From: Gemmata sp.
GTDB taxonomy: Bacteria; Planctomycetota; Planctomycetia; Gemmatales; Gemmataceae
Reading direction: 5' to 3'
DNA: 64,000 nucleotides
Assembly (NCBI GenBank): GCA_025055115.1
Contig: JANWYJ010000043.1
Location: 62,001 to 126,000 of the forward strand
Numbering within the stretch: the first letter of the stretch is position 1; every line of letters begins with the position of its first letter. The notes below the pieces were generated by a model. It had not been told where the DNA came from and did not search any database. It saw only the letters and a list, made by a program, of their open reading frames with translations. A program made the translations under genes and the position numbers. Of this stretch, positions 2,284 to 12,551 are shown piece by piece.

Positions 2284-3597
2284 CTAGCGAGACGCAGAAT
2301 CCACACGTTTGACGACGACCAAAGTTCGATCATCGACGGGTGTGGTACCAGCCGTAAACAGTGACAAGGAAGCGAGAATGGCCTTCAGCAACGCCTCGGC
2401 GGTGGGGTAGCAAGTCGTGAGTTCTTCATCGATGGGGGCGGAGCCAAAAACCTCTCCTTCGGTGTTCACCGCCTCAATGACACCATCGGTAAAGAAAACG
2501 ACTTGATCGCCGGGCAGCAGTGGCACGGTCTGTTCGATGTAGGTTTCGTCGAGTTTGATTCCCAACGGCAGTTTTTGGGCACGGTTGAGGGCGATTTTGA
2601 AGCCGTCGGCAGCGCGCAACAAGCGTGGCGGGTTATGACCGGCACTGGCGTAACTGAGGGTGCCGTGGCCTGGGTCGAAAACCGCGTAGAATGCTGTGAC
2701 GAAGCTACCCGTGGGTCGGGTGTAACGGCGCGTGAGGTGAGCATTGAGGTAAGTGAGAAATTCCGCCGGCCGTTGCGGCGGTTCTGCGCGCGTGTGGGCG
2801 ATGGTGTGAACTACCGCCATCAGAACGGCCGCAGGTGCCCCGTGCCCGCTGGCATCGGCAATCAAGACTCCCAAACGATCGTTGGATAGCGGGAAGAAGT
2901 CGTAGTAATCGCCGCCGGCACGTTTGGCGGTTTGGTAATACACGGCGACATCCAAACCCGGCACACGGGGTTGGCTTGCCGGCAGCAACGACCGCTGAAT
3001 CTCCGCAATCGAACGAAGCTCGTAATCCAGCCCATCGAACGCTTCTTTGACGGCTTGAGCCAAGACTACGGTTTGCGTGGCCCGGGCAAACAAGTTACTC
3101 AGCAGCACTAAGTCTGCCACCCGCTCCCGAGGGAAGTTGTCGGTGTCGTCGCGGGTGACGACGACCATCGTTTGGGCTGTTCCGGATTCGTAGTGGGGAA
3201 TGGCTACGAGAGTGCGTTGCCCCGCGAGGTAGTGGATGGCTGGGTCGTCAACTGCCAAATGCAGGTTGTCGATAATACGGGGTTGGTCGTTGTAGAGTAA
3301 TTCCGCCAATAATCCGCCGCTGTGAACGGGCAGACGGTGAGCCTCTTTCCAGGGGTTGATCGGCTCTTTCCACAAGCTGAACCGAGCCACTCGATAGTCG
3401 GGGTAGCGCAGTCCGCGACGCGAAATGGTCAGATGACGGCTAACAGGGAACAGCTGCGTGATCCGCCGGGTAAAAACGGTGTACATTTCCTGCGGGTCTT
3501 GGGCGCGGCTGAGTTCGCGCATCACCTCCACACTGACGGTCAAGCGGGTCCGCCAGTTGCGCGGTTCGGTGTCGAAGAAGTCGGGCGCTTCGGTCAT
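2284..3597 (-). CDS. PP2C-type phosphatase of the SpoIIE/RsbU class with an N-terminal GAF-like domain
   Basis: The 437-residue protein has an N-terminal region (about 20-180) with the length and pattern of a GAF sensor domain, a short coiled linker (180-205), and a C-terminal SpoIIE phosphatase domain (about 205-433). The metal-binding motifs are intact: GGDYYDFF at 228-235, DASGHGAPAAVLMA at 248-261, YASAGHNPP at 316-324, FFTDGVIEA at 368-376 and DDRTLVVVK at 422-430. Enzymes of this class dephosphorylate serine on anti-sigma-factor antagonists in partner-switching cascades. No antagonist or anti-sigma gene lies nearby, so the partner is unknown. No transmembrane segment is seen, so it is probably cytoplasmic. 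Confidence 0.9.
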   Translation of the reverse strand: MTEAPDFFDTEPRNWRTRLTVSVEVMRELSRAQDPQEMYTVFTRRITQLFPVSRHLTISRRGLRYPDYRVARFSLWKEPINPWKEAHRLPVHSGGLLAELLYNDQPRIIDNLHLAVDDPAIHYLAGQRTLVAIPHYESGTAQTMVVVTRDDTDNFPRERVADLVLLSNLFARATQTVVLAQAVKEAFDGLDYELRSIAEIQRSLLPASQPRVPGLDVAVYYQTAKRAGGDYYDFFPLSNDRLGVLIADASGHGAPAAVLMAVVHTIAHTRAEPPQRPAEFLTYLNAHLTRRYTRPTGSFVTAFYAVFDPGHGTLSYASAGHNPPRLLRAADGFKIALNRAQKLPLGIKLDETYIEQTVPLLPGDQVVFFTDGVIEAVNTEGEVFGSAPIDEELTTCYPTAEALLKAILASLSLFTAGTTPVDDRTLVVVKRVDSASR

Positions 3598-3921
3598 AGG
3601 GCCGCCTCCGCGGCACGGACTTGAATCAATCCTTGGGCGAATCGACCCGACAGGATATCGCTAGTAGACCGTTCCTACCACCAAAACGCAAGAACCACCA
3701 TGAAGTTAATGCGATTTTCATCAAATCATCCGTCGTGCTAGCCAGCTTCCGTGTACCACGGAGCACCCCGTTGTGATCAGTCCTGGTTCGTCGTGTCGAC
3801 CTCTGTGAAGACACCCCTCGGACAAGCCCTACCGATGGTTCTTTCCGAGGGGGATTTGACATAAATACTGATTTTGAAATACTTTGTGTCGCTTCGTCCG
3901 ATCGGTCGGAACGGCGATGCC

Positions 3922-3950
3922 TTGCAGATCGGTCTATTCAACTGTATAAC
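3922..3950 (+). promoter_or_regulatory. Candidate sigma-70-type promoter for hisDCB
   Basis: In the 455-base spacer between the phosphatase gene and hisD (3598-4052) there is TTGCAG at 3922-3927, 17 bases, then TATAAC at 3945-3950, about 100 bases before hisD. A second candidate is TTGACA at 3856-3861 followed after 17 bases by ATACTT. The surrounding DNA (3850-3960) is clearly more AT-rich than the genes. I see no gene, attenuator or leader peptide rich in histidine in this spacer. Confidence 0.4.
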
Positions 3951-4052
3951 AAAATAGAGTGTGACGAGCGGTGGCTTCCAACTGCCGTTCGATGGGCAGT
4001 CCCATTGCGGACAGGTGACAACGCGGGGTTGAGTTACCCACGAGGCCGAGCA

Positions 4053-5477
4053 ATGCCATCTTTGAAGCTGCGGCGGATCGATCTGACAACCTCGAATGCT
4101 GCAGCCCAAATTATCAAACTTCGCGATCAGTTCCGTACCGATGCGGAAGTTGTATCGGCAGCTAGCAAAAAGAAAACCCAAGCCGTTTTTGGGGAACCGT
4201 TGCCCCCCGGGCGTGCCGTGGAGCGGATTTGCTCCGAGGTCCGCGACAAAGGGTTATCCGCGGTTCTCAACTACACTGAACTTTTTGATGGTGTGAAGCT
4301 CAAGCCCGATCAGATTCGGGTTTCGGCCCAAGAAATGGCCGCAGCGCATGCGGCCGTCGAACCGCAATTTCTGGAAGTTATTCGCCAGGTTCGCGACAAC
4401 ATCGTGCTTTTCCAATCCGGCTTGCTCCACAGCGATGTGGAAATGCGCAAGCCCCTCAAGCACGATCTGCAGGTTCGTTACCGGCCGCTCAAACGGGTCG
4501 GGGTCTATTGCCCCGGCGGTGCGGCGGCCTATCCTTCGACCTTGCTGATGACGGTTTGCCCGGCCCAAGTTGCTGGTGTGCAAGAAGTTGTGGTTTGTAT
4601 GCCCCCCAATGACCGCGGGGCCTACAATCGTGAAATGCTCGCGACCTGCCACGAACTAGGGATCAGCGAAGTCTACCGCTTCGGGGGTGCCCAAGCTATT
4701 GCTGCGATGGCTTATGGTGTTGAGGGTCTCAAACCCGTGGATATGATCGTGGGTCCGGGGAATCAGTATGTCGCCCTCGCCAAGAAATATGTCTTTGGCC
4801 AGGTGGCGATTGACTGCCTGGCCGGACCCAGTGAAATTGTCGTGTTGGCCGATGATTCTGCCCATCCCGACTATGTTGCTCTGGATCTCATCGCCCAAGC
4901 CGAGCATTCCCCCGGGGTTGCTATTCTCGTCACATGGTACGAACCACTGATCGATGAAGTACACAATGCCCTGCAGAAACGGCTGGCCAAACTCACCCGC
5001 GCCGATCTAGCGCGGGATAGCCTCGAACGCTACGGGGCATTAGTTCTGGCACCCAATAAGGCCGCCGCGGCCGATTGCGTCAACACCCTTGCCCCGGAAC
5101 ACCTTCACATCCAAACCCGCGACCCCGACGCGACCCTGGAAGATATTGACAGTGCCGGTGCGGTCTTTCTAGGGCCGTTCACCCCCGTGGCGATCGGTGA
5201 TTACCTGGCCGGCCCCAGCCACGTTTTGCCGACCGGCGGCACGGCACGCTTCGCCAGTGGCCTCAACGCCAACGATTTCCGCAAGCGCACCAGTATCATC
5301 CGTTTCACCCGCAAAGGACTTCAAGAAATTGCCGACGATGTGATTTACATCTCGAATAAAGAAGGGTTGACCGGTCATGCCGCCAGTGTGGAGCTGCGAG
5401 CTAACGACAATGGCCCCGCCGCTCGGCCCAAGCCCAAGCCGGACAAGCTCGCCTCGTCGCTACCCGCGAAGAAGTGA
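4053..5477 (+). CDS. hisD: Histidinol dehydrogenase
   Basis: HisD oxidises L-histidinol to L-histidine in two NAD-dependent steps, the last reactions of histidine synthesis. The 474-residue protein carries GPGNQYVALAKKYVFG, the DCLAGPSEIVVLAD block, the catalytic 'QAEHSPG' Glu-His pair, 'APEHLHIQ', and a C-terminal block ending in 'GLNANDFRKRTS'. Zinc-binding Glu, His and Asp positions are in these blocks. I chose the ATG at 4053 (GAGG 8 bases upstream, family-like start) over the ATG at 4005. The last 30 residues are a lysine- and proline-rich tail not typical of the family. hisC begins nine bases after the stop. Confidence 0.95.
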   Translation: MPSLKLRRIDLTTSNAAAQIIKLRDQFRTDAEVVSAASKKKTQAVFGEPLPPGRAVERICSEVRDKGLSAVLNYTELFDGVKLKPDQIRVSAQEMAAAHAAVEPQFLEVIRQVRDNIVLFQSGLLHSDVEMRKPLKHDLQVRYRPLKRVGVYCPGGAAAYPSTLLMTVCPAQVAGVQEVVVCMPPNDRGAYNREMLATCHELGISEVYRFGGAQAIAAMAYGVEGLKPVDMIVGPGNQYVALAKKYVFGQVAIDCLAGPSEIVVLADDSAHPDYVALDLIAQAEHSPGVAILVTWYEPLIDEVHNALQKRLAKLTRADLARDSLERYGALVLAPNKAAAADCVNTLAPEHLHIQTRDPDATLEDIDSAGAVFLGPFTPVAIGDYLAGPSHVLPTGGTARFASGLNANDFRKRTSIIRFTRKGLQEIADDVIYISNKEGLTGHAASVELRANDNGPAARPKPKPDKLASSLPAKK

Positions 5478-5486
5478 CGGTGTGCC

Positions 5487-6553
<1,067 letters not shown>

Positions 6554-6554
<1 letters not shown>

Positions 6555-7141
6555 TGCCCCGCACCGCGCAGATTGAACGCCAGACGACCGAGACCGCCAT
6601 TGAGCTGAGCTTGAACCTCGATGGAACTGGCACGGCGGCCGTGGCCACGGGTGTTGGTTTCTTCGACCACATGCTGACCCACATCGCCAAACACGCCCTG
6701 TTCGACTTGAGCGTCCGCTGCCGCGGTGATACCCATATCGACGCCCATCACACCGTCGAAGATGTTGGCATTTGCTTTGGTCAAGCCTTGGTGCACGCGC
6801 TGGGTGAGAAACGGGGTATTCGCCGGTTTGGTGATTGTACTTTGCCGATGGAGGATACGCTGGTCACTGCGGCGGTCGATCTGAGCGGCCGGCCGTATTT
6901 GTTGTGGCGCGCCGAGGTTCCCCTCGAGCTTCTGGGGAGCTTTTCCTCACAATTGGGGGAAGAATTCTGGCGTGCGGCCAGCTCGGCGGGCCTGTTCAAC
7001 TTACATGTGGTGTTGCATCATGGGCGCAACACCCATCATATCCTTGAAGCGATTTTCAAGGCCACCGCCCGAGCGTTGCGTGCAGCAAGCGAACTCGATC
7101 CGCGCAGCGGTGGCATTCCCTCCACCAAAGGCGTTCTCTAA
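6554..7141 (+). CDS. hisB: Imidazoleglycerol-phosphate dehydratase
   Basis: HisB dehydrates imidazole glycerol phosphate to imidazole acetol phosphate, the step before HisC. At 195 residues it is the single-function form, without the histidinol-phosphatase domain seen in enterobacteria. The metal-binding motifs are 'FFDHMLTHIAKHA' (near 36), 'DTHIDAHHTVEDVG' (near 61) and 'LHVVLHHGRNTHHI' (near 150), and the end has 'STKGVL', as is normal for the family. It is the last gene of the hisDCB operon. The phosphatase that makes histidinol must be encoded elsewhere. Confidence 0.95.
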
Positions 7142-7167
7142 GCATTTCCTCGTTGGTTGGGCGGATG

Positions 7168-7198
7168 AGGCTTGCTTGACACAGCTTCGTGCAAGCCT
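7168..7198. promoter_or_regulatory. Inverted repeat overlapping a TTGACA box, upstream of the GrpE-like/Hsp70-like operon
   Basis: AGGCTTGC at 7168-7175 is perfectly inverted as GCAAGCCT at 7191-7198. A consensus TTGACA (7176-7181) sits in the loop, and an AT-rich stretch with TATCCT follows at 7203-7208. This could be the terminator of the his operon, but it lacks a T-run. An operator over the promoter of the next operon fits as well. The next ATG is at 7308. Confidence 0.4.
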
Positions 7199-7307
7199 TG
7201 ATATCCTATCCTGCCGACTGTGCCGGTGGGGCGGCCGTGGCCCCCGACACCTGGCACAGAAAACCTATTTTTCTTTCTATAACTAACAGTAGCCTGATGA
7301 TGAGGGC

Positions 7308-8300
7308 ATGGACGTGGCCAAAACAACAAAATCCCCCAAAGTTGTTTCCATTGACGAACTTATCACTGACGCCTTGATAAAAGCTGCCCATTCTGTTCAC
7401 CCGGTCAAACTCATGGGGAAAGAGGGGGGACTTTTTGCATCGGCCAGCGGCGCCAATAAGGCCGCGATCGCCGCATGTTTTGATCCGGAAACACCTTTGC
7501 TGCAGAGTGTGGGCAAGCAAGATCGTCAGGAGTTGGTAGTTCTCGCTCCTGCCGGCTTGGAGCGGGTGTTGCCCCATTTACCGCCCGAGAAGGTGGGAGC
7601 GGTTGCGAAAGCGGTCATTGTTGCGGCTCCACTCTCAGTGCGTGCCAAGCTTATCCAGAAAGTGATTTCTCAGGTTCCGGCCGCTGCTGGCGAACTGAAT
7701 GCCATTCTCGAAGAAACGATTGCCGCCGAAGCGGCCGAGGCCGAAGCCCGTATCCGGACCGCGCAGCAGCGGCGCGCCGAAGAGCACGACACACAACAAG
7801 CCTTGCAACGAGCCTTGGAATTGATCCGCCAACGGCAGCAAGCCCGACTCAAAGCTCTCCAGCGCGAATGGGAAGCCGAAGGTCAAGACCCCGAGGAGTT
7901 GCTGCGATTACTGCCAAAACCGCATCGTACTACCCCTGACGATGGCCAAAAACCACGAAAGCGGAGGGAAGATTCCTCGAAGGACACGGCTCCACCGCTC
8001 AAAACGCAGGAGGAAATCGATTTCCGCCGCCAGGAATGTGATCGCCTCGCTGCGGCCTGGCGTGAGGCCTGGGACGATGGCAAGCACGAAGCCCAAGACT
8101 ATCTCGAAAGCGCGATGTGGAACATCCTGGGTTTTCGCATGATTGGAGAGGTTGGAGCCATTGTGGATTTTGACGCACGCTACCATGAATGCGATCAGCC
8201 CCTGATGAGTGGGAAAGTGCGCGTCATCCGTCCCGGATGGTTACTCAAGGAGCCGAAGGGGGATTACGTCGCCCTCAAAGCCGTCGTTACCACACTCTGA
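7308..8300 (+). CDS. Coiled-coil protein with a GrpE-like C-terminal tail
   Basis: The 330-residue protein has no signal peptide or membrane segment. Residues 1-130 are a soluble region I do not recognise. Residues 135-200 are a long charged, alanine-, glutamate- and glutamine-rich coiled coil, residues 205-232 a low-complexity linker, and residues 235-330 a compact domain. The last 50 residues (VGAIVDFDARYHE, then VIRPGWLLKE) resemble the beta domain of the nucleotide exchange factor GrpE, whose consensus has 'FDPxxHEA' and 'GYxLxxRVxRPA'. The next gene, eight bases on, is an Hsp70-fold ATPase. I therefore infer a specialised exchange or adaptor factor for that ATPase. The GrpE assignment rests on pattern and context only. 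Confidence 0.6.
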   Translation: MDVAKTTKSPKVVSIDELITDALIKAAHSVHPVKLMGKEGGLFASASGANKAAIAACFDPETPLLQSVGKQDRQELVVLAPAGLERVLPHLPPEKVGAVAKAVIVAAPLSVRAKLIQKVISQVPAAAGELNAILEETIAAEAAEAEARIRTAQQRRAEEHDTQQALQRALELIRQRQQARLKALQREWEAEGQDPEELLRLLPKPHRTTPDDGQKPRKRREDSSKDTAPPLKTQEEIDFRRQECDRLAAAWREAWDDGKHEAQDYLESAMWNILGFRMIGEVGAIVDFDARYHECDQPLMSGKVRVIRPGWLLKEPKGDYVALKAVVTTL

Positions 8301-8308
8301 GGTCGGTC

Positions 8309-9745
8309 GTGCTGGATTACATCTTTTGTATTGACTTCGGCAGTGCGTATACCAAAGTGGCCCTGCGGCCCGCGCCCCAAGACAAGACAGTGCTACTGCG
8401 ATGCGACGACACCGCGGCGGAATTCTGGGTACCCACGATCGTCGCGGCCGACTATAGCGCGGGCAGCCATCCCCAGATGAAGTTTGGTTATGAAGCGGCG
8501 GGTATCAAGCCGGGTGGTTCGATTCACGTCTTCACTGACTTCAAGCGTCATCTCTTTTCGACAGCTCCCACCGCGGATGCTGAACGTTCCCCGATGGAGT
8601 TGTTGCTGCGTTCTCCCGAACTGGCGGAACTGGCGGCCAAATTTGGTGTTGCGTCGACGGAGCTGGCCGCCCTTCGCCATCTGGTGGCAGCGGCTCGGGA
8701 CCTGAACGGTCGGCGCGTGGGAGCCGGTACTTCTTCCCTGGCGCGCACGATTCATAACGCTCAGGCTGCGACTCACCACTACCTCACATGGCTGCGGCAA
8801 CGTGTCCTCACCGCGTGCCAACAATTACCGAACCGCCCGCCACGATGCGAGGACATCCCGCTGCGCTTGGCAGTGCCAGCCGTCGCCCCCGCCACCAAGT
8901 TGGCGCAACATGTGGGTTGCCAACGCTTGCGCGAGGCACTGGTGAATACCGGTTGGAAACTCGATGAACGCCCCTTTGTCCCCGAGCCGGAATCCAACGC
9001 GATCGGTATCCTCACCCGTGGCCTCAATGCTCTCCGACCCAACAATCGTCTCATTGACTACGGCAAAATGCTCGACTCCGGACCGCTGCTGACGGTGCTC
9101 AAAGGTGACCGCTATCATCCAACCTACCGGGCCTTGGTGATCGACATCGGCGCCTACACCACCGATTTCGCGGCTCTGTCAGTCGATACCGGAGGTCAAG
9201 TCCCTGACCTCGACGAAGGCATCCACTTCACCATCGAACAACACTCACTGGCCTATGGCGTGACCAATCTGGATGAGGCGATTCGCAATAACCTGCCCCG
9301 CGAGCAGCAAACCGCGTTGGCCGCCCTCTCACGCAAGGACTTCGAGGCATTTCAAATCAATGCCTATACGGAAGGGATTGGCTACCGCCTGGCACGCGGG
9401 CGAATTCTTGGTGGCCCAGCCGACCAACCGATGATCCAAACGTGTCTGCGCGACTTTGCCCAGCGGCTGGTGGAGGAAACGCGTTGCTTTTGTCAGCGCT
9501 TAGGCCCGCCCGCCGCGATGCAGGAGTTCATCCTCACCGGCGGCGGCGCGAATATCCCTCTGGTGGCAGAGACTCTCATTGACGCTATCACCACCCTCCT
9601 GCAGCCCCGAAGAATTCACGCGAGCCATCTGCCGCCCGCGATCCTGAAAAAACCGTTGCCGCAAAAACTCGATGGCTCTTGGACGCGGGCCGCCAGTGCC
9701 CTGGGGGGCGCCAGTATCTACTACGAACCGGCCGTTCATCTCTAA
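8309..9745 (+). CDS. Hsp70/actin-fold ATPase, divergent DnaK-like protein
   Basis: I place the start at GTG 8309. A TGAGG ribosome-binding site at 8298-8302 overlaps the stop of the previous gene, and the protein then opens directly into the ATPase fold. The longer frame from 8189 would overlap the upstream gene by 112 bases. The 478-residue product has the phosphate-1 loop FCIDFGSAYTKVA (residues 6-18), the phosphate-2 loop VIDIGAYTTDFA (277-288) and the adenosine loop LTGGGANIPLVAETL (409-423). The region after the ATPase core is only about 50 residues, too short for a normal DnaK substrate-binding domain. It is thus an Hsp70-like ATPase of a non-DnaK kind, probably working with the GrpE-like protein encoded just upstream. 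Confidence 0.75.
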   Translation: MLDYIFCIDFGSAYTKVALRPAPQDKTVLLRCDDTAAEFWVPTIVAADYSAGSHPQMKFGYEAAGIKPGGSIHVFTDFKRHLFSTAPTADAERSPMELLLRSPELAELAAKFGVASTELAALRHLVAAARDLNGRRVGAGTSSLARTIHNAQAATHHYLTWLRQRVLTACQQLPNRPPRCEDIPLRLAVPAVAPATKLAQHVGCQRLREALVNTGWKLDERPFVPEPESNAIGILTRGLNALRPNNRLIDYGKMLDSGPLLTVLKGDRYHPTYRALVIDIGAYTTDFAALSVDTGGQVPDLDEGIHFTIEQHSLAYGVTNLDEAIRNNLPREQQTALAALSRKDFEAFQINAYTEGIGYRLARGRILGGPADQPMIQTCLRDFAQRLVEETRCFCQRLGPPAAMQEFILTGGGANIPLVAETLIDAITTLLQPRRIHASHLPPAILKKPLPQKLDGSWTRAASALGGASIYYEPAVHL

Positions 9746-9920
9746 CATTCATCGATGGCCACAGGGGGGCCATTTCAAGTCCCGCGCAATTCCGTTCATT
9801 CTCAGGGATGGCCTCAGGACGTGGTATTGCATGGGGGAAGCAATTGCCTTCTCGCCTCATAGGGTTTACAAACACATCTGAGTGATGTGATGTTTTCGGA
9901 AGGCCACCACCGGATAGCCC

Positions 9921-12551
9921 ATGTCTTCCAATCCCAATAGCCCTCCCCCACCTCAGGGCCTCCCTGACGCTCGTCACGCTACAACGGAGCCGAGTGAGCC
10001 TGCGGCACCCACCACCGACCCGCAACAAACGATTCACCGCGAGTCGACCGCCGTCATTCCAACGGATCCCGATCAAACCGTCCGCCGCGAGCCATCGGCC
10101 CCATCGTCGTTACTACCTCACGAGGCCAACACCGTATTACAATCGAAACCACCGGTCTGGCCGGGTCACCTGAATGCCACAGCGACTCATCCCTCCCCTT
10201 CGGACCAAGAACTCCGGGAGCTGGAACAGGAAATCGAACAAAGCCAGCAGGACCAAGGGCAGGCACTCGCGGGGGATCACGAGCTGATTCGCCCTCTCGG
10301 ACACGGTTCCTTTGGCATCGTTTGGGAGGCTAAGAATCGCCATACGGGGGAACATGTGGCGATCAAGTTCTTTCGGGCTGAGGATGCCGATTGGGCCAAA
10401 TTGCTCAACGAAGTGGGAGTGGTGCAGCGTGTTGAAGGTTGTCGCGGGATTGTGTTGGTGAAGGAAGTGCGGCCTGGTAGCCCGGGATGCCGTCCTTACT
10501 ACGTCATGCCCTTGGCCAATCGCGGTTCACTGGCCGATTGGATCAAAAACGCGGGGAATCTGTCATCGAGTGAACGCCTGCGGATGGCGGAGCATATCTT
10601 TGCCCGTGTCGCCCGAGCGATGGCGGTGGTGCATCGTCGCGGTATTCATCATTGTGATCTCAAGCCGCACAACATTCTTTTGCATGCCACCGAGGAGAAC
10701 GCTGTCCCGGAACCGCTGGTGGCCGATTTTGGCCAGGCCCATTTGGCCAACGATCGGTCGCCGGCCCACGGTACCTTCTTCTACATGCCGCCCGATCAGA
10801 TCGACGCCATTCAAACCCAGGCCCCACCCGATACCCGGTGGGATGTCTACGCGTTGGGGGCTGTGGTGTATGAAATGATCACCGGCGACGCTCCGCGGCG
10901 CACGCCAGAACTACTCCAACAGATCAAGGATGCTCCCAAAAACCTCACACAACGAATGGCCATCTACCGCGCTGGCATCCTGGCAGCGCCTCCACCGACC
11001 GCGCACCATCGGTATTGCGACTCCATGCTGGCCACCATCATCGACCGCTGCCTAGCCTTGCAACCCGACCGTCGGCCCGCGGATGCCGGGGCCGTGCTCC
11101 AACTTCTGCAAGCCCGTGACCGGTGGCGGCGAACACGACCCCTGCTCGGTTGGGCCATCGCCGCGACCATCCTGGTGATCACCATGGCCTTGGCCGTGGC
11201 ATGGTGGTGGGCCCAGGATGTCACAGAGCGCGTCAAGAGGGACGTCACCGCGGAGCTATCCAAAAGCCTCGCCCGAACCAGTGGTTTTGCCGCCCGCGCT
11301 GTCGAAGACCGCCTACAGAAAAACATTCTGTTGCTGGAACATTGGGCCGAAGACGTGCACAGTCACAATCCCGCCGTCATCCGCGCCCTGGCGCAGGCCG
11401 CCGCTATTCCACGCCGTGCGCAGCTGACGGAATGCCCCGTTTTGCCGCAGGACGAGCATCAAGAACTCGGCCGTTGGCTGTTGCATCTCCATCGCCAGCG
11501 CGTCCGCCTCATGGGCCACACCAGCCATTTCCCAACCCTTGGGGTCATGTTGGTGACCGCCGATGCCGACAGCTCCACACCCGAGTCCCGGGGTTTCTTC
11601 TTGGCACGCGTCTTACAAAATGGTCGCGTGGAGGATTGGGAGACGTCGCGCGGAACGGTGGGGCAGGCGATTTACCACACGGATTTATCTTACCGCGATT
11701 ATTTTCATGTCGGCTCGGGGGAAACGGAACATCCCACCACGCCCCATCGCGTTGTTCGCTACTCGCACATCAGCCGCCCGTTTCGTTCCCGAGGCAATGA
11801 TTTCACGGGCAAAGCCATCGAGGCCCAACGGTGGAAATTCAACATCGTCACACCCTTGTGGAACGATCCCCACCGACGCGAACGGATCATCGGACTGTTG
11901 GTTCTGGGCTTTGATGTCGAAAACGATTTGGTTCCGTTGCTCGATCCGTCGTCGGAATCCTCCATGCCCTCACAGTCGGCGGTCGGGGACTTGGAGCTAT
12001 CCTACAACATTCATCAACTCACAAAAGTCGTTGTTACCGATCATCGTGGCCATTGGATTTGGCATCCCGATGCCCGCGAGGTCATCGAATCCAAGCAATC
12101 GGCGCTGGAGCGGCTCCCTGCCTATCCGACGTTGATACGAGAATTTCACTATACTCGTGACCAGGCGGGGCCGTGGGCGGCGTTCGTGTCCGATCAAGGT
12201 GATGGGCCGTCCTTCTCGGGGCAGCCATCCGACAGTTACATCGACCCGCTCGAAACGAAAATTGATGGGGATCGGGATGAAGAAATCGCCGCGTTTGTGA
12301 CCTTCAACCCCTTTGCGGCGAGCACTTACACCCGCGCCGATCGCGAACATCCGGCCGCTCCCCCCCGGCCGTGGTTGTTGATCGCTCAAATCGATAAGAA
12401 ACAAGCCCTGAAGCCTCTCGATGATCTGGAACATCGGATCATCTTGCGCGGCGGGGCTACAGTTGTCGGCATCATGACCCTGATTGCCGCGGGATTGTGG
12501 ATCGGTCTGATCTGGGTTCTGCGACGACTCGATGGGAGTTCCTCCCCCTAG
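9921..12551 (+). CDS. Membrane Ser/Thr protein kinase fused to a periplasmic Cache-like sensor
   Basis: The protein is 876 residues. Residues 1-95 are proline- and threonine-rich and contain two similar 'DPxQTxxRE' motifs (33-41 and 49-57) that look like phosphorylation or FHA-docking sites. A Hanks-type kinase domain follows (about 120-395) with the P-loop GHGSFGIV (127-134), lysine in VAIK (149), HHCDLKPHN (243-251) and DFG (269-271). One transmembrane helix is at 408-430, then about 415 residues outside the membrane with the size and pattern of a double Cache ligand-binding domain, then a second helix near 845-868 and a short tail. HRD is changed to HCD and APE to PPD. HCD kinases are non-RD kinases, usually not activated by loop phosphorylation. 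It lies 175 bases after the Hsp70-like gene on the same strand. Confidence 0.85.
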   Translation: MSSNPNSPPPPQGLPDARHATTEPSEPAAPTTDPQQTIHRESTAVIPTDPDQTVRREPSAPSSLLPHEANTVLQSKPPVWPGHLNATATHPSPSDQELRELEQEIEQSQQDQGQALAGDHELIRPLGHGSFGIVWEAKNRHTGEHVAIKFFRAEDADWAKLLNEVGVVQRVEGCRGIVLVKEVRPGSPGCRPYYVMPLANRGSLADWIKNAGNLSSSERLRMAEHIFARVARAMAVVHRRGIHHCDLKPHNILLHATEENAVPEPLVADFGQAHLANDRSPAHGTFFYMPPDQIDAIQTQAPPDTRWDVYALGAVVYEMITGDAPRRTPELLQQIKDAPKNLTQRMAIYRAGILAAPPPTAHHRYCDSMLATIIDRCLALQPDRRPADAGAVLQLLQARDRWRRTRPLLGWAIAATILVITMALAVAWWWAQDVTERVKRDVTAELSKSLARTSGFAARAVEDRLQKNILLLEHWAEDVHSHNPAVIRALAQAAAIPRRAQLTECPVLPQDEHQELGRWLLHLHRQRVRLMGHTSHFPTLGVMLVTADADSSTPESRGFFLARVLQNGRVEDWETSRGTVGQAIYHTDLSYRDYFHVGSGETEHPTTPHRVVRYSHISRPFRSRGNDFTGKAIEAQRWKFNIVTPLWNDPHRRERIIGLLVLGFDVENDLVPLLDPSSESSMPSQSAVGDLELSYNIHQLTKVVVTDHRGHWIWHPDAREVIESKQSALERLPAYPTLIREFHYTRDQAGPWAAFVSDQGDGPSFSGQPSDSYIDPLETKIDGDRDEEIAAFVTFNPFAASTYTRADREHPAAPPRPWLLIAQIDKKQALKPLDDLEHRIILRGGATVVGIMTLIAAGLWIGLIWVLRRLDGSSSP

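Follow-up and report, generated by a model that had tools for sequence, protein, structure and literature searches.

A predicted GrpE-type protein and a lone Hsp70/MreB-fold ATPase form a conserved two-gene pair in Gemmataceae

Within a 64,000-nucleotide stretch of a Gemmata sp. genome (contig JANWYJ010000043.1; the whole stretch is called the window below, with positions counted from its first letter), we characterized a pair of adjacent genes that is real, conserved and lineage-specific, and that constitutes a fresh variation on the Hsp70/GrpE pairing. Gene 1 (7308–8300, + strand; 330 aa) encodes a protein assigned, from its open reading frame (ORF) and AlphaFold2 (AF2) model, a predicted winged-helix-like domain, a long helix and a GrpE-type C-terminal part. 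Gene 2 (8309–9745, + strand; 478 aa) encodes a stand-alone ASKHA (Hsp70/MreB-fold) ATPase domain and begins with a GTG at 8309, 8 nt past the gene 1 stop codon. The source genome comprises 4.93 Mb in 100 contigs, and its family is named as Gemmataceae. A preliminary description of this region had placed three genes here, the second eight bases after the first, and had read all three as a set. ORF calling confirmed the layout, with three + strand ORFs filling positions 7308–12551, and comparison across genomes established that the conserved set is two genes, not three, the pair alone being kept together.

Conservation of the pair and the neighbouring kinase

To follow the pair through the family, both genes were searched for in 95 family genomes. 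Gene 2 was present in 26 of these. The gene 1 profile matched 31, six of which carried an isolated match to the N-terminal domain (N-domain) only and were left out, giving 25/95 genomes with whole or partial copies. The coordinates of both searches make gene 2 the immediate same-strand neighbour of gene 1 in every genome carrying gene 1 (25/25), two of these adjacent pairs (G004 and G461) being fragmentary or partial. In the first of these (locus L052, 7931–8938), fragments of both genes stand behind full-length his genes, and the pair can thus be lost. The distance between the two genes was −1 to 12 nt in all 17 pairs inspected and the gene 1 stop codon sits within TGAGG in 12 of them, an arrangement that suggests coupled translation.

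A phylum-wide search for gene 2 (392 genomes, E ≤ 1e-10) returned its own genome only, with no other family genome among the 21 rows listed. A wider search of contigs yielded 17 loci, one of them labelled Bacteroidales; the window’s family also has a contig that carries the pair at identical coordinates. Within the sensitivity of these searches, the pair looks like a Gemmataceae invention. Viral or plasmid carriage was considered and rejected, as relatives of gene 2 were found neither in viral contigs nor in plasmids, and gene 1 had no match in a viral fold library at E ≤ 0.001.

The third ORF (9921–12551, + strand; 876 aa) encodes a membrane Ser/Thr kinase with an extracytoplasmic sensor region and lies outside the module. 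Its assignment as a kinase, made in the preliminary description, stands (Pkinase at 1.7e-37 in Pfam, intact kinase motifs), and two hydrophobic segments start near residues 408 and 848. The Cache-like domain proposed alongside it is a weak label: in the window protein the sensor region had no Pfam match at E ≤ 10, and one of two orthologues scanned matched dCache_1 at E 0.0054, below cut-off. A search at E ≤ 1e-30, scoring 15 candidates in each of the 18 remaining genomes of the genus, recovered kinase orthologues in eight, all eight unlinked to the pair, either on other contigs or, in G016, ~570 kb away. In seven genomes the orthologue was 47–56% identical across most of its length (one copy with an internal stop), the orthologue in G016 being in two pieces of 61% and 37% identity. 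Seven of these eight genomes show a gene other than the kinase next to the pair; the contig breaks off at that point in G001. Furthermore, the closest relative (71/77% identity) carries the pair, and the interval from there to the next shared gene contains no kinase; the same search gave no full-length kinase match in that genome. Three loci have other Ser/Thr kinases (27–32% identity) at 4–6 kb from the pair, and one of these loci has another farther off. The three-gene co-occurrence that had been proposed as a check was therefore not found, the kinase being elsewhere in all eight orthologue genomes, and we rejected it as a third member since it is unlinked there and absent beside the pair in the closest relative. 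Another candidate third gene, C5 (~550 aa with a Zn-finger-like start, following the pair in nine loci), was not adopted because neither the window nor the closest relative showed it and it has no Pfam match.

Predicted folds and conserved residues

The gene 1 protein fell into no family in Pfam or PHROGs and into none above cut-off in NCBIfam. Its AF2 model (17-row alignment) reached a predicted local distance difference test score (pLDDT) of 85.9 and a predicted template modelling score (pTM) of 0.47, the latter expected to be low because the domains sit on a flexible linker. When 996 chains were aligned to this model with VIA-align (one row per entry), rows 1–6 were all GrpE (Z 9.3–8.1), the next row falling to Z 6.5. 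Four of the GrpE rows aligned 84–92 residues at 2.7–3.0 Å within residues 232–330, and the other two covered more of the chain at over 20 Å rmsd. In the predicted model this part (8001–8297, + strand) holds the short helices (residues 234–257 and 260–271) and the beta-wing (residues 276–329) of the GrpE fold. GrpE was also the best Foldseek match (8gb3_E, prob 0.93), and hhalign comparison with 30 planctomycete GrpE frames scored 34.7, with the beta-wing and the FDxxxH motif in register; scores from 200 column shuffles peaked at 25.0, and the reversed alignment reached 19.5. The GrpE-like tail noted earlier is thus backed by fold, GrpE occupying the first six rows in the structural check that had been proposed, and by profile–profile comparison relative to shuffled controls, not by Pfam. 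We take the C-terminal part to be GrpE-type in its predicted fold, and it is probably homologous to GrpE.

Ahead of it, the chain begins with the N-domain (7344–7598, + strand; about residues 13–97, delimited by VIA-align and homologous domains), continues into a long stalk-like helix (7677–7877, + strand; residues 124–190 by AF2 secondary structure and pLDDT), and passes through a linker predicted to be flexible or disordered (about residues 202–232). MarR-type regulators appeared among the VIA-align rows at Z 5.2–6.0, under the tool’s safe level; the N-domain may be winged-helix-like, and Z values of 5–6 could reflect a mere common arrangement. The putative recognition helix carries a net charge of 0 or below in 16/16 members with that stretch, the wing stretch ranges from −1 to +2 (+2 in 3/17 members), and the domain as a whole ranges from −3 to +2 in 17 members, one of them partial. 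Because the putative recognition helix is never net positive, the sequences favour an N-domain that contacts protein rather than DNA.

For gene 2, the AF2 model (pLDDT 85.5, pTM 0.81) drew Hsp70-family ATPase domains, by title, for nearly all of the best 50 VIA-align rows (Z 27.5–29.8 across 322–342 residues); MreB and ParM were absent from the 50 rows listed, which excludes nothing, and Foldseek scored MreB almost as high as Hsp70. All 18 members, 469–484 aa in length, stop a few residues beyond the ATPase domain and lack both a linker and a substrate-binding domain. The preliminary description of an Hsp70-fold ATPase lacking a normal substrate-binding domain is borne out on both counts, the fold being found in the model and the chain ending with the ATPase domain. 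Residues D9, G11, T15, K16, K79, E226, D279, G281, T284, D286 and G411–413 are invariant in 18/18 members, and T410 is kept in 17/18. Because these nucleotide-site residues are conserved, gene 2 presumably encodes an active ATPase. The invariant G60–K79 spacing of 19 residues equals the Gly–Lys spacing of a planctomycete DnaK, whose Lys we take to be at the position of catalytic K70 of E. coli DnaK; hhalign sets K79, itself invariant in 18/18, a few residues off the DnaK Lys. The stretch running from K79 to the VPA-motif Pro counts 111 residues in gene 2 versus 71 in that DnaK, AF2 placing helices there, and this longer region could possibly provide an extra contact surface.

Sequence profiles place the protein differently from the structural rows. 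MreB-like_C matched 8/18 members (best E 3.7e-4, below cut-off), PF13941 MutL matched 4/18, and the gene 2 profile scored 62.7 against MreB versus 51.3 against the DnaK ATPase domain (profile sets: MreB, 14/19 loci; DnaK, 22/30 loci), where 60 shuffles reached at most 23.3. A comparison with PilM gave no match and has no weight, since the set held two PilM sequences. Because it is nearer MreB than DnaK by profile, we do not file gene 2 as an Hsp70: it belongs to a separate family of ASKHA ATPases, its domain being the size of that of Hsp70.

Proposed mechanism and alternative explanations

Our favoured reading, held tentatively and at slightly less than an even chance, is that the pair forms a dedicated, lineage-specific ATPase/exchange-factor machine whose exchange factor carries a targeting domain. 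A dedicated switch/reset pair is the simplest account because gene 1 has both GrpE contact elements and its constant neighbour is a lone ATPase domain. GrpE is reported to use its wing and short helices to force apart the lobes of an Hsp70 ATPase (PMC12987570). The gene 2 protein would act as an ATP switch, binding and hydrolysing ATP and thereby shifting the angle between its two lobes, with no client-binding domain of its own. The gene 1 protein would be its exchange factor, probably a dimer via the long helix, whose wing and short helices would wedge the gene 2 lobes open and reset ADP to ATP. Since gene 2 lacks a client-binding domain, recognition would lie elsewhere, and the candidate is the tethered N-domain of gene 1: recognition may have moved to this domain, which would dock on a protein target on its flexible tether, the ATPase cycle then holding and releasing, or assembling and disassembling, a complex at the docked target. 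The two proteins would interact physically. Canonical GrpE and DnaK are encoded elsewhere in the source genome, so the pair is an additional system. From the earlier proposal of a signal-controlled, dedicated chaperone-like ATPase we retain the dedicated ATPase with a GrpE-like partner (25/25 adjacency, fold), and discard control by the kinase on grounds of linkage.

Several observations weigh against this reading. PF01025 (GrpE) did not match the window protein at E ≤ 10 or any of 17 members at 0.1, the best Foldseek match to GrpE has an E-value of 0.18, and the hhalign probability for GrpE is 34% (57% for the C-terminal part alone). The HSP70 profile (PF00012) matched none of 18 gene 2 members at 0.1, in addition to the nearer MreB profile score. 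One of the 26 ATPase-bearing genomes, G497, has an intact gene 2 (locus L088, 3358–4809) with no gene 1 detected in the locus, even when search filters were off; only an isolated N-domain match lies elsewhere in that genome. The co-variation of gene 1 and gene 2 distances beyond those of hisD and hisC (partial r 0.61) speaks for the pair but is weak, coming from nine loci with non-independent pairs. Moreover, hisD, hisC and hisB lie upstream of the pair in the window (4005–7141, + strand; Pfam, tblastn over loci), and hisB stands ahead of the pair, in the same orientation, in 21/25 loci with a visible upstream region, in several genera (tblastn; L088, with its lone gene 2, scored as a miss, and L076, whose contig begins inside gene 1, left out); part of the pair’s linkage may therefore be conserved chromosome order. 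Finally, no J-domain protein was found among the window ORFs scanned.

The same evidence bears on the alternatives. An actin-like filament system, in which gene 2 polymerises like MreB, MamK or ParM and gene 1 is an adaptor or anchor whose winged helix tethers cargo, is unlikely: the MreB-like_C matches, a resemblance to MamK, the higher MreB profile score and the close Foldseek scores for MreB and Hsp70 speak for it, whereas the regions upstream of gene 1 in five loci hold no iteron-like repeat array, the putative recognition helix is ill-suited to DNA, and we know of no role for a GrpE-type part in such systems. A ParM-like centromere beside the pair was rejected for want of iterons in those five upstream regions. 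The GrpE-type wing, together with the canonical DnaK and GrpE of this genome, would also suit an accessory to the main chaperone, gene 1 exchanging nucleotide on canonical DnaK or gene 2 sequestering GrpE; this is improbable, as gene 1 tracks the neighbouring ATPase (25/95 genomes) and not DnaK, HSP70-family genes being found in 26/26 relatives searched.

It is decidedly improbable that gene 1 is a DNA-binding regulator, that is, a MarR-type transcription factor gated by the ATPase. The winged-helix-like fold, the MarR rows and the +2 wing stretch of a few members are what such a regulator would predict, but the putative recognition helix is never net positive, the net charge of the whole domain lies between −3 and +2, and the MarR Z values could mean only a common arrangement. 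A role in serving or regulating the preceding histidine genes would account for the steady hisB neighbour and is nevertheless very improbable, given that in three loci with whole or partial pairs (L051, L085 and L157) the available upstream sequence contains no his gene, that hisB and gene 1 are tens to hundreds of bases apart depending on the locus (tblastn), and that neither protein has features pointing to histidine synthesis. Least probable of all is a three-gene pathway in which the Cache kinase, on sensing a ligand, would phosphorylate either the ATPase or the GrpE-like protein; the kinase does adjoin the pair in the source genome with its motifs intact, but its orthologues are unlinked in 8/8 other genomes and none stands beside the pair in the closest relative.

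Around the pair, a SpoIIE-type phosphatase gene (window 2284–3597, − strand) accompanies the his block in the loci of 11/26 genomes examined, the window counted. Upstream of gene 1 in locus L082 (6821–6892), perfect inverted repeats of 30 nt flank a 12-nt loop, a feature not reported in four other loci examined. Promoter and terminator scans gave a result no better than chance.

Related systems and implications

Measured against the GrpE family (PF01025), gene 1 shares the short helices and C-terminal beta-wing (Z 8.1–9.3), an FDxxxH-type motif in register and an Hsp70-fold ATPase as partner; it differs in being unmatched by PF01025, in its N-terminal winged-helix-like domain and in the linker between its long helix and its short helices. 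Gene 2 likewise shares the ATPase-domain fold and nucleotide-site residues with the Hsp70s DnaK, HscA and HscC, but has no linker, substrate-binding domain or HSP70 profile match and is nearer MreB by profile. HscA and HscC, themselves regarded as GrpE-independent, are reported to lack the GrpE signature (PMC8215388). With MreB, MamK and ParM, gene 2 has in common the ASKHA fold and sub-threshold profile matches, and is set apart by its longer post-K79 region and GrpE-type partner. ParMRC-type systems differ in that no iteron array lies upstream of the pair (five regions); where they have a DNA-binding adaptor, gene 1 has a possibly winged-helix-like domain whose putative recognition helix carries no net positive charge.

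The nearest published arrangement found is that of Kaur et al. 2020, who report HSP70 and GrpE in the neighbourhoods of GAP1-N2 GTPases, some of which have a second HSP70 without a peptide-binding domain beside the full one, together with the GTPase and with FNIII/DnaJ proteins; most are from actinobacteria and firmicutes (PMC7159879). These systems resemble ours in joining GrpE with HSP70, some of the HSP70s having no peptide-binding domain, and differ in that the Gemmataceae set comprises two genes; the window ORFs scanned, from 427 to 22676, included no GTPase. With such neighbourhoods already known, not every element of the pair is new. No two-gene arrangement whose GrpE protein is winged-helix-like was found in the open-access literature, among the matches listed, for Hsp70/GrpE in planctomycetes, Gemmata GrpE, GrpE with a winged helix, GrpE-like fusions, Hsp70 without a substrate-binding domain, ATPase-domain-only Hsp70 with GrpE operons, and planctomycete Hsp70-like or actin-like ATPases.

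In other planctomycetes, a second GrpE adjoins a full-length Hsp70 (L146, 3623–4669; L148, 4920–5774; L149, 4815–5516), and these loci also encode a third protein of 798–918 aa without a Pfam match. They resemble our pair in being GrpE/Hsp70 gene pairs of the same phylum; unlike gene 1 and gene 2, their proteins match the GrpE profile (in L149 through the search of genomes) and, strongly, the HSP70 profile, and their ATPase is long enough for a substrate-binding domain.

Homologues of the gene 1 N-domain occur in other Gemmataceae proteins of about 270–330 aa (nine isolated matches). Five of the six loci fetched from these matches (L143, L144, L145, L158 and L160) encode an N-domain protein of ~300 aa with an AAA_16/STAND-like ATPase directly after it (787–877 aa in the three measured), a second Gemmataceae pair. 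The N-domain thus recurs beside another kind of ATPase, as expected of an ATPase-partner module.

In two same-genus genomes, both of which carry the pair, portal proteins of prophages (phrog_21) also contain the GrpE-type wing of gene 1: at residues 881–952 of the protein at 3521–7918 (− strand) in L141, and at residues 615–737 of that at 4199–7147 (− strand) in L142. An IMG/VR contig (L255) has a portal wing identical there to that of L141; a portal-borne GrpE-type wing was not found in phage records. A more specific version of our reading, in which a split Hsp70-like machine has its client binding moved to the exchange factor and the portal wing possibly recruits or jams the ATPase during DNA packaging or entry, is quite unlikely; if true, target binding and nucleotide reset would be coupled in one molecule.

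Hsp70 grips its client with the ATPase’s own second domain, and GrpE is the reset factor. A conserved natural pair of a gripless ATPase and a GrpE-like protein with a putative docking domain would test whether a nucleotide cycle by itself can drive assembly or release via the exchange factor. The prophage portal fusion is a separate hint of phage interplay, and the pair itself would offer a minimal system for GrpE action without a substrate-binding domain.

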